In this document: piece by piece, positions 34,125-39,691 of the stretch
Layout: every line of letters begins with the position of its first letter
Numbering within the stretch: position 1 is the stretch's first letter
From: Hyalangium gracile
GTDB lineage: Bacteria; Myxococcota; Myxococcia; Myxococcales; Myxococcaceae
DNA: 64,000 nucleotides
Assembly: GCF_020103725.1 (NCBI RefSeq)
Contig: NZ_JAHXBG010000002.1
Coordinates: 1-64,000, forward strand
Direction: 5' to 3'
Program-made: the position numbers and the translations under genes
Notes under the pieces: model-generated
What the model was told of the DNA's origin: nothing
Databases searched by the model: none
What the model saw: only the letters and a program-made list of their open reading frames with translations

Positions 34125-35183
34125 ATGACAAGTAGGTTGCAGCCAAGCCTGAAGGCTGAACTACTGCGGTACATGGCAGGCGAAAATTCGGATGGACTCG
34201 ACAACCAAGCCGCTCCTGAGCAAGAAGAACACTCTGAGGCTCAAGAGCCATCTCCTCAGATACTCGATACGCAAGACCTTCTGCAAAGGATCGCAGATTC
34301 ATTGCGAAGTGAGTTCACGGCATTTCAAGCCATTCCTCATCGTGGAGAAGCAGGCCGCGCATTAGAAGACGCTTTGCGGCACACACTTGAAAGGCACCTC
34401 CCTGGGCGGGTTGGGTTACGGAGCGGCTTCGCTCTTGGAGTAGACCGGAGCGTGAGCCGACAGGCTGATCTTCTGTTGGTGGATGCTCTCGCGTGCCCGG
34501 CGCTTCTACAGGCCAAGTCGATGGGCATCTATCCCATTGACGGGGTGATTGGCGCCATTGAGGTCACGAGCAAAATCACCAAACGGAAGTGGCTCACGGA
34601 CTGTGCCAAGCTCATGGAGTTCAGGCAATTGTTACCGTCCTCCTTTCTGCAGTCGAGCGCCCTTCCACCGGCAGGAATGATGTTCGCAGCAGACGCAGAT
34701 TCCTCGCTACGGACTGTTGGCGACTGGGTTGCCACACGCTTCACCGAAGTTCGTGAGGACGAACGGCAGTATCTGCCGAATTGTGTCGTCGTTCTTGAGA
34801 AAGGGCTAGTGTGCTACCTTGAGATTGAGAATGGCGTCGTGAAGCTATCGTTCAATCCTATCAATGCCGGAATGGTGGCTGTTATCGAATCGCCACAACT
34901 CCATCTCGGTGTTTTCCTGCATCTCCTCCTGCATGAACTCCGTCGCGTATTGGCTTCGCGCATGAGGGGATATCTCCTGCACCTCCTCAAAGAAGCTCAT
35001 CATCTGCCGCACCAAAAAGGTGGTCTCATTGGACTGGAGAGCGAGACTATCCAAACTACGTTTGCAATCACCCAACAGTTAGCTGACGCCGCGGCATTTT
35101 TTCCCGACTACGCCACATACTTGGGTGACGATCTGTCGGGTAAGCTTGCGGATTCGCTGCACCGCATCCCCGTCGGACCGTGA
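34125..35183 (+). CDS. DUF6602 domain protein
   Basis: A 352-residue soluble protein. The recognisable part is residues about 50-180: H-R-G-E-A-G-R-A-L-E, R-H-L-P-G-R-V-G-L-R-S-G-F, D-L-L-L-V-D and V-I-G-A-I-E-V-T-S-K. This is the DUF6602 pattern. The D-x(n)-E-V-x-S-K order resembles a PD-(D/E)XK nuclease core, but the position that is usually Lys after E-V is Thr, so activity is doubtful. Base composition and codon use are clearly less GC-rich than neighbours, which points to horizontal acquisition. No strong ribosome site; ATG at 34176 is an alternative start. Members are frequent beside defence genes (family knowledge, not shown here). Confidence 0.72.
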   Translation: MTSRLQPSLKAELLRYMAGENSDGLDNQAAPEQEEHSEAQEPSPQILDTQDLLQRIADSLRSEFTAFQAIPHRGEAGRALEDALRHTLERHLPGRVGLRSGFALGVDRSVSRQADLLLVDALACPALLQAKSMGIYPIDGVIGAIEVTSKITKRKWLTDCAKLMEFRQLLPSSFLQSSALPPAGMMFAADADSSLRTVGDWVATRFTEVREDERQYLPNCVVVLEKGLVCYLEIENGVVKLSFNPINAGMVAVIESPQLHLGVFLHLLLHELRRVLASRMRGYLLHLLKEAHHLPHQKGGLIGLESETIQTTFAITQQLADAAAFFPDYATYLGDDLSGKLADSLHRIPVGP

Positions 35184-35475
35184 GCGGCGGAAGCACGCCA
35201 GGAAGGCAGCGAGCATCGAGGAGCGCCAACTCTGGCCGAGTAAGCACCCACGCGGGACAACGGCGGCTCGCGCCCACTGAAGAACGCCAGGAGCGAAGCC
35301 CGCAGCCTTCCGGGCTTCACCGTCGCGGCAGCAGACTGGTGGCCACCTTCACGAGACGTTGGATCCACGAGCGGTTGAGACGCCCCACTAGGCGCAACAG
35401 GCGCCGCGTGTCCGGCGTGTCCTCCAGTCCGGGGGCACCGGGCTTGCCTCGTGGGCGTGCTGCGGTGGTGGTAGC

Positions 35476-35984
35476 GTATCCGTCCGGCGGACGCCGCGGC
35501 GGAGTGCTTGAAGACGGAGGGGCACCGTGCTCGGTGCTACTCTCGTGGAGACGAGCCCCAAGAAGCGCGGCGAAACGATCGCGGCGACCGCGATCGAAAC
35601 TTACATGGAGCGCGGGCTCAGTTGATCGGAAAACCAGGAAAGTGCCCGCGCTCGCGAGTTCTGGGGGCCTACAGCCCCCAAGCCCCCCTGTGGCGTCGAC
35701 AAGCCCCTGTTTTGCGAAGGAGTGAAGACAAAACAGGGGCTTGTCGACGCGATCGTTCAGAACGCTCCTGCCAAGCATGGGTCACCCAGGGATTCGGGCG
35801 CCCGCAGTCCGAAGATCGCCAACCGACCGATGGGGCTGGATTCTGATCGAAACCAGAGGGGGCGATCCTGCGGTTGCTCGCAGTCGCCGCGATCGGAATC
35901 CCACGTTCCTCAACGATCGTTTCCAATGTCCCGAGCCGCTCAGCTCGGCAATGCCCCGCAGCACGTCGTCTGCCGGACGGATAC
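35476..35984. repeat. Large imperfect inverted repeat with conserved blocks
   Basis: Perfect inverted blocks: GTATCCGTCCGGC at 35476-35488 against 35972-35984; GATCGCGGCGAC at 35577-35588 against 35883-35894; GAAACGATCG at 35572-35581 against 35914-35923. Their midpoints (about 35730-35748) fall close to the midpoint of the central hairpin (35722). The order is roughly nested, so this is one diverged inverted duplication of about 510 bp rather than chance matches. Confidence 0.65.
35693..35750. repeat. Perfect 21-bp inverted repeat, 16-base loop
   Basis: Left arm 35693-35713 (GCGTCGACAAGCCCCTGTTTT) is written here only by its ends: it starts GCGTCGAC and ends CTGTTTT; the right arm 35730-35750 is its exact complement. 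The loop 35714-35729 is purine-rich and includes GAAGGAG. In RNA the stem would be very stable. It could be a recombination site, a transcription terminator, the core of a mobile element or a folded RNA. Confidence 0.85.
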
Positions 35985-36036: not shown

Positions 36037-36960
36037 TCACGCGTTTCTTGGAGCGGGCGTTCCCTGTCCTTGGAGGTAGATGCCAAGGGGTGAGTATCGG
36101 TAGCTAATCCCGATGTGCACGCCACAATAGCCGGGGGTTTGAAACGACAGGAGACCTGGGCGAAGCCGGCCATTCCGCACCCAGCGCCTGTGCTCATGGC
36201 TCATCAGAAATACGAATTCCATACCGCAGAAGTGCAGGCGGAGCCCGGCAGGATCCCCACCGCGCGGATCATCAATGGGCGTCGCCGACATGCTCGGGGC
36301 TCCGTCGGGAAACATCCAGAACCCGCCAAGGTTGAGCCACAGCCCGGCGCCACTTGGCATGGCCTCATTCAGCTTGAGGAGTGCCTCAAGCCACGGTTTC
36401 GGAGCGCACCACTGAGCACCTTTCACCTCTGCTTCCATCGCCGTGACGCCACACAGTGTTTTAAGAAACCATCGCTCAAGATCCTCACCATTGAACAATC
36501 CAGTGGCCGTACGCGCATCGTTTGCTGGCTCTCCCGTCTTCAGGAGCAATTCATAAAACCGGTCACCAATTCCGTCGTATGGCGATAGTGCTGCGTTATG
36601 AGCTGTGCACAGGACCTTCGCCTTGAGCTGAGATGGCGGAATTCTCAGCGACTTTCCAGGGGGGAGCCACGCCATCTTACTGACTTGAAGTTGACCACCG
36701 CCATAGTTGGTCATCCTCCGGAGGATAGCGTGACTCAAATAGTGCTCACCGGAAAGCTGAGGGGAGCATCCTCCTATCGGTGCCGCATAGCACCTCAAGG
36801 TTGTAGACTCAGCAGGACCGAGGCGCGGCGCCGGAATTGCTGCCGGAACCCCGCGAATACGGCCACGCTCATCAAGGCAACATTCCCGCCCCGGCTTGCT
36901 TGAACCGCACGGGCAGGCGGCATAAGGATCTGCAATCTCGACTTGGGCGGCGCTAATCAT
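36037..36960 (-). CDS. SEC-C and HNH-like zinc protein
   Basis: About 307 residues. The N-terminus carries a SEC-C zinc knuckle, C-P-C-G-S-x(5)-C-C, as at the end of SecA, where it binds zinc and protein partners. Residues about 65-130 contain S-G-E-H-Y-L-S-H-A-I-L and later L-C-T-A-H-N-A-A-L-S, the E-H ... C-x-x-H-N spacing seen in HNH-like nuclease folds. The remaining C-terminal half (about 190-300) is unrecognised and ends in Tyr/Gly-rich strands. Start ATG 36960 with AGGTG upstream, or GTG three codons earlier. Lower GC than the core genome. A nuclease or nuclease-derived role is inferred, not shown. Confidence 0.7.
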   Translation of the reverse strand: MISAAQVEIADPYAACPCGSSKPGRECCLDERGRIRGVPAAIPAPRLGPAESTTLRCYAAPIGGCSPQLSGEHYLSHAILRRMTNYGGGQLQVSKMAWLPPGKSLRIPPSQLKAKVLCTAHNAALSPYDGIGDRFYELLLKTGEPANDARTATGLFNGEDLERWFLKTLCGVTAMEAEVKGAQWCAPKPWLEALLKLNEAMPSGAGLWLNLGGFWMFPDGAPSMSATPIDDPRGGDPAGLRLHFCGMEFVFLMSHEHRRWVRNGRLRPGLLSFQTPGYCGVHIGISYRYSPLGIYLQGQGTPAPRNA

Positions 36961-37223
36961 GGGATGCACCTAGCAGTTGCGTCTCATTCTAGCCTAGGGC
37001 GAGACCCAGGAGGAACCCGGGCCGCCTGCTCCCGAGTGCACCGAGCTGGAGCATCAGAACGGCCGACGCGGGGACCAATGGGCGTAGGTGCTTCACAGGG
37101 CTCTGCGTCGGGGGTCTGGTCGACTCCGAGAGGAGGGGCAGTCCATCTCCTTTGGATGATGGCACCTGCTCCTTGGTGTCGCCCTTGCAAATTGCAAACC
37201 CGGGTGAGGCACTTCCAACTGGT

Positions 37224-38274: not shown

Positions 38275-39625
<1,351 letters not shown>

Positions 39626-39691
39626 AGGCTCTGTGCTCTGCGAGGAAACATCTGTCCGTCGTGAGACGAGCCTGGGGTAGTCCACCCCGGC

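Follow-up and report, generated by a model that had tools for sequence, protein, structure and literature searches.

Insertion sequences (IS) of the IS66 family duplicate 8 bp of their target. For the IS21 family, the ends of IS21 and IS5376 are described in one report as built of a pair of repeats, each bearing a terminal CA, and a target duplication of 5 bp is mentioned there (PMC10122671). ISPve1, an IS21-family element of Paracoccus, makes an 8-bp target duplication, and its insertion was accompanied by deletions of 0.5-4.5 kb beside the element; these deletions arose in trap plasmids, affected a single flank of the IS and were not seen by the authors with their other IS21-family elements (PMC3281130). 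In the accessible text of a recent review, prokaryotic MITEs are short, gene-less elements that have inverted repeats in common with an IS and occur at more than one site (PMC10969869). A term search found neither IS21 nor IS66 in that text of the review, and the available portion of PMC3281130 describes no MITE-like element of the kind reported here. Full-text searches of freely available papers, for IS21 or IS66 with MITEs and for myxobacteria with both IS families, brought up no description of a MITE family with IS21-type ends.

The locus analyzed here occupies positions 35476-35984 of the window (the whole stretch of DNA that was analyzed, 64,000 nucleotides), which is part of contig C2 of an 11.7-Mb assembly of 81 contigs. 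On one side of it lies a DUF6602 gene (34125-35183, plus strand; Pfam, 6.3e-17) and on the other a frame for which Pfam gave no match (36037-36969, minus strand). A first-pass annotation had described it as a nested inverted repeat, and this proved to be real: aligned with each other, the two arms score 104, whereas 500 dinucleotide shuffles averaged 46 (sd 7, maximum 76), and when the central stem is removed they still score 86 (shuffles: mean 45, sd 7, maximum 68). Two 13-bp perfect blocks, GTATCCGTCCGGC and CGATCGCGGCGAC, were recovered from the three pairs that had been reported, with the third unmatched in the arm alignment. The central stem is perfect as had been stated, with a length of 22 bp rather than 21 (35693-35714 pairs with 35729-35750 across a loop of 14 nt), and the 64-kb window has no other perfect stem that reaches 12 bp with a loop of up to 30 nt. 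We are strongly confident that the locus is a two-layer transposon nest, in which an IS21-type MITE lies between the ends of an IS66-family remnant, and our confidence in the identity of both layers, as judged by sequence comparison, is very high. The two layers are, by the elements that they match, unrelated transposons and not one inverted duplication; the arms resemble nested inverted repeats because both transposons have inverted terminal repeats and the two are concentric. Nested IS remnants such as this one are commonplace debris in genomes.

The outer layer comprises the two ends of one IS66-family element, both on the minus strand. The right end (35476-35545) carries the terminal repeat GTATCCGTCCGGCGGACGCCG at 35476-35496 and matches the right end of the L098 element. 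It also matches, in L044 and L094, the element end that follows tnpC, which in L044 comes just downstream of the gene. The left end (35926-35984) carries the opposite terminal repeat at 35964-35984, and its counterparts are the left ends of two elements, that of L098 and the tnpC-bearing one of L043; the two outer repeats are 90% complementary over 21 nt. Our full-length yardstick is the 2397-bp IS66 element of L098 (560-2956), which is bounded by both end types and contains IS66 transposase domains, its transposase being split over two frames. The window remnant resembles the IS66 family in that both of its ends match elements with IS66 transposase genes, and differs from it in what is left: 70 + 59 bp with the genes lost, about 2.27 kb less than L098. 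The 8-bp target duplication of the family was not seen, since the window flanks outside the IS66 ends do not match by eye; this is not unexpected in a damaged remnant, and the bases outside the IS66 ends of L098 also do not match each other.

The distribution of matches within the order shows where the outer layer stops. Some match to the feature was found in at least 52 of the 145 genomes of the order, and some match to the 3.3-kb region in at least 16 of 59 genomes (the window's own included); both counts are lower bounds, because only the best four candidates per genome were scored in the 145-genome search and the best five in the 59-genome search. Query bases 1-59 to 1-70 and 451-509 to 481-509 of the feature match many places that are distinct from those matched by the inner element. 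The longest right-end matches (one place in G126 and two in G131) stop at query base 70, which is 35545, and the longest left-end matches (in G121, G115 and G125) span query bases 451-509, which are 35926-35984. Since these matches stop exactly at the borders of the inner element, the latter sits inside the IS66 remnant. On the left flank, 35300-35467 (minus strand) is the 3' remnant of a regulator gene with a helix-turn-helix, XRE-type by reading of the protein, that is 84% identical to loci in G005 and G004. The homologous frame in G005 continues to 159 aa (L041 1609-2088, minus strand) and the homology ends at about 35467. The upstream part of the gene is missing from a point close to the IS66 remnant, and it was probably the IS66 insertion that truncated it. 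No clean empty site was found in G004 or G005: the left flank is homologous and diverges near 35467, and the matches listed include none to the right flank.

The inner layer (35546-35925, unstranded) is a 380-bp, non-autonomous MITE-like element of IS21 type by its ends. These are imperfect inverted repeats of about 51 bp that start TGGARACGATC..., namely an istB-side (B) terminal repeat at 35546-35596 on the plus strand and an istA-side (A) terminal repeat at 35875-35925 on the minus strand. The borders at 35546 and 35925 were placed by comparison, as 23 of 25 aligned ends start TGGA at the same column and the bases upstream vary; the two exceptions are TTAA at the A end in G006 and an end placed three bases off, and some matches to the MITE end extend beyond it, by 10 bases at most (G040, query 61-121). 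Four reading frames scanned over the region gave no Pfam match. In the sister species G006, an 86% identical copy of 378 bp corresponds to 35545-35922, hairpin included, and is the best match from another genome among those listed. It lies at G006:C79 with different flanks and is the sole match between the 3.3 kb of the window and 4.5 kb of G006; as the element is present there without a matching flank, the inner part moved as a unit. In this region of G006 (L026 577-2069), the copy was also seen to begin about 50 bp from the end of the DDE_Tnp_1 transposase gene of another IS.

The self-search that had been proposed did reveal further copies. Contig C17 of the same genome has a partial copy, 90% identical to 35546-35709, and shorter matches to the feature are found on C13, C1 and C10; G002 has a short match to the MITE. 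Near-complete copies thus number two (the window and G006), plus the partial one on C17, and the flanks of these sites differ. The target-site duplications sought in the same proposal are missing (0 bp at the window MITE borders), and we therefore term the element MITE-like and not a proven MITE. Compared with prokaryotic MITEs as described in the accessible part of PMC10969869, the window element is alike in being short, gene-less, present at more than one site and equipped with inverted repeats that an IS also has, and unlike in its low copy number and lack of a target duplication.

The assignment to the IS21 type comes from the elements that share these ends. When the end was searched for as a degenerate pattern, 9 of 59 genomes contained it, and a wider pattern was present in 18 of the 145 genomes of the order, with no matches to the backwards control in either case. 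With an nhmmer profile of the end (matches taken to E 0.1), inverted pairs were found 86 bp to 3.3 kb apart, the short elements among them measuring 86-432 bp; the pair in L057 was left out as its right match covered part of the model only, and L030 (86 bp, with a mutated right end) was kept despite its weakness. Four elements in four genomes, including the window's own, have istA and istB between the ends: L045 (3345 bp; IstB matches Pfam IstB_IS21 at 3.3e-62), L077 (3259 bp), L072 (3285 bp) and L009 (2915 bp). L072 is contig C53 of G040, which begins and stops exactly at two ends; its IstA matches the NCBIfam IS21 transposase at 1.4e-77 and its istB is not a single open frame. L009 is the C13 copy of the window's own genome, whose left and right arms, 2.9 kb apart, are the two C13 matches; its IstA frame is open and 67% identical to IstA of G040, and its istB is damaged or incomplete, no counterpart of residues 239-340 of the L045 frame having been found. 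Two further frames without a Pfam match, orfX and orfY, lie upstream of istA in all four long elements. Stray short matches aside, the similarity of the window element to these four partners is confined to its terminal ~51 and ~60 bp, and it is on this account also classed as MITE-like.

The ends themselves fall into two types, which we compared with B and A consensus strings made within this analysis. Over 51 bases, 20 of the 21 elements, that of the window included, pair an end closer to the istB-side consensus with one closer to the istA-side consensus and the remaining element ties, several of the margins being just 1-2 bases. When the last 13 bases only are used, 12 of the 21 have one B and one A end, eight are undecided at one end (the window among them) and one has two B-like ends. 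The B end of the window element is clear. Its other end is probably of the istA-side type: it agrees with the A and B consensus at 40 and 35 of 51 bases, respectively, and at nine each of the last 13, and its homology to the A end of L009 reaches ~35867. A TG start and a CA finish on both sides are present in 17 of 21 elements, again including the window, the exceptions being L026, L030, L046 and L081; the right border of L081 was placed one base apart in the comparison of terminal dinucleotides and partners and in the count of target duplications. Among internal repeats in ten ends, mean identity was 0.48 at an offset of 24, the highest of offsets 15-33, and 0.45 at an offset of 33, with the others at 0.20-0.37; the window's own ends gave 0.41 at both 24 and 33. 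These values hint that the two-repeat architecture described for IS21 ends may be present here. The family is therefore like IS21 in its istA- and istB-bearing partners and in its TG...CA termini, and unlike it in that the window element has the ends only, that its partners have orfX and orfY in addition to istA and istB, and that target duplications are mostly not seen.

Other members of the collection were recorded alongside. By eye, L027, L047, L048 (G002), L058 (G006) and L082 (G087) form a second subfamily of 192-250 bp with a common interior of its own, found in both orientations. Two insertions in the window's own genome with B-type ends, L008 1856-2503 and L009 5064-6011, lie beside genes that share segments (...EAESWLQNHP...) and have no match above the Pfam cut-off.

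The shared ends also account for the peptide motif to which attention had first been drawn. The sequence ETx4RGxxIAATA can indeed be read, by eye, in each arm, as would be seen if a small gene had been duplicated in inverted orientation and had then decayed. The same motif is, however, the terminus of the istA/istB elements, and short elements whose interiors differ end in it as well; none of the four frames scanned matches Pfam, which leaves a duplicated gene as a very remote reading. It appears in both arms because it is an IS21-type terminal repeat read in frame. The first-pass annotation had offered a gene duplication, a MITE-like element and a structured RNA locus as options, and the second is the one that fits the inner 380 bp, whose ends are common to istA/istB elements and which has copies at other sites.

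On the nested-transposon reading, we infer the following order of events. An IS66-family element would first have inserted beside the regulator gene, probably truncating it, and the 380-bp gene-less IS21-type MITE would then have landed in the IS66 element, presumably mobilized by IstA and IstB that were supplied in trans, with IstA binding its ends. About 2.27 kb of the IS66 body would have been lost at or after this insertion, leaving 70 bp of IS66 on one side of the MITE and 59 bp on the other. Both trans mobilization and an insertion-coupled deletion are plausible. ISPve1, in the part of its description available, is alike in being an IS21-family insertion with an adjacent deletion, a precedent for the missing IS66 body, and unlike in that it is a complete IS whose deletions were observed, the deletion in the window being deduced (PMC3281130). 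Deletion upon insertion of this kind would explain both the loss of IS66 and the absent duplication. The family as a whole rarely shows duplications: among 20 elements with both flanks, one has 4 bp, one 3 bp and one 2 bp, and the rest have 0-1. In G040, identical ends of a multicopy IS21-family element lie beside seven different left and five different right flanks, and no pairing of these seven left and five right contig-end junctions shares 3 bp or more.

The MITE may instead have landed, without causing any deletion, in an IS66 element that was already shortened to an IS66 MITE of ~130 bp. We regard this as possible, and as clearly the less probable course. It would leave the same two sharp borders. 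Against it, the places listed (the best four per genome, read by eye) include no left and right end closer than ~2.3 kb, single ends matched by both query ends aside; a closer pair, 1466 bp apart, does occur in L043. The target bases at the MITE borders are also not duplicated. We favor loss of the IS66 body at or after the MITE insertion.

The central hairpin (35693-35750, unstranded) is an internal part of the MITE. In the G006 copy, 18 of its 22 Watson-Crick pairs are kept, 17 unchanged and one by a compensatory change on both sides, and four are broken on the plus strand; three of these four are G-U on the minus strand (strand read by eye). RNA folding gives z of -7.2 for the window hairpin on the minus strand (-6.1 and -6.7 for the two strands in another folding) and of -3.5 and -3.0 for the two strands in G006. 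The pairing kept in G006, together with the value of -7.2, could point to a structured RNA or DNA hairpin signal that is kept by selection, perhaps in a minus-strand transcript, with the MITE as its carrier. We consider this improbable. Between the window and G006, the two complete copies on which the comparison rests, the stem differs at 6 of 44 positions and the rest of the element at 48 of 334 (Fisher p = 1.0), and at least one compensatory pair is expected by chance with p ~0.13. In the C17 copy, similarity to the element reaches the first part of the stem, breaks off there and begins again at 35759, so that most of the hairpin is absent from it. No Rfam family reached its gathering score in the window, and a miRNA precursor model matched both strands at ~32 bits (100 being required; E ~0.001), most likely reflecting the shape of the hairpin. 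No promoter-like or terminator-like match was found, and the window contains no tRNA.

Other roles for the hairpin were considered and set aside. Compared with C17 it first looked like an insert, as if a very small palindrome had moved by itself; G006 has the same interior with the hairpin, and a deletion in C17 is accordingly the better reading. A role as terminator was dropped for want of a terminator-like match, and a coding reading of the stem region found no sign of support, as changes relative to G006 fall at all codon positions by eye. The exact hairpin occurs nowhere else in the genome contigs searched (which may not have included the records of the window's own genome), and one stem arm, with at most one mismatch, is found singly at two other places in the own genome.

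The presence of the hairpin in both the window and G006 copies indicates an old, inherited part of the MITE interior that predates their separation, and a stem that changes at the background rate does not show selection. Judged from these two copies, the hairpin was inherited together with the MITE and gives no evidence of constraint, where recent origin or selection had been suspected. Template-switch correction of near-palindromes is a described process, and the perfect state of the stem in the window could be due to it or to chance survival. The absence of further copies and of a conserved stem in relatives had been named as grounds against the first-pass view; copies do exist, and the stem is partly kept in one of them (G006).

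Some members of the family may carry genes. A segment of the window's own genome (L050 2266-5022; G000:C1, ~357265-360021) has an IS21-type end (3.6e-8) and, facing it in inverted orientation, a partial one with a weaker match (0.0024), and between them lie an intact-looking SitA5-type polymorphic toxin (escort) with Tox-REase-5 and an Imm52 immunity gene; this segment is possibly a mobile insertion cassette. In L046 1812-3163 (G006:C51), 1352 bp between one A-like and one B-like end include a frame that reads as a cysteine-rich lipoprotein. The toxin/immunity pair of L050 and the lipoprotein-like gene of L046 are candidate passengers. Separately, the window itself encodes, at 38275-39685 on the minus strand, an Imm11/Gmx_para_CXXCG-like protein, with a match to NCBIfam SitI6 below the cut-off, and an adjoining lipoprotein-like frame with an NHH motif; by reading, the two resemble another toxin/immunity pair.

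What looked like a puzzling palindrome can in this way be read as two stacked transposons, and with the end sequence defined, IS21-type MITE-like elements can be found across this bacterial order. As a speculative extension, which we hold to be rather unlikely in full, the order may carry a cross-mobilized family of IS21 ends whose insertions seldom duplicate the target and may take the place of target DNA; this family would include both gene-less MITEs and passenger cassettes, so that IstA acting in trans would spread kin-discrimination genes. If IstA does move these ends in trans, the members with passengers would be of importance to how toxin and immunity genes spread.
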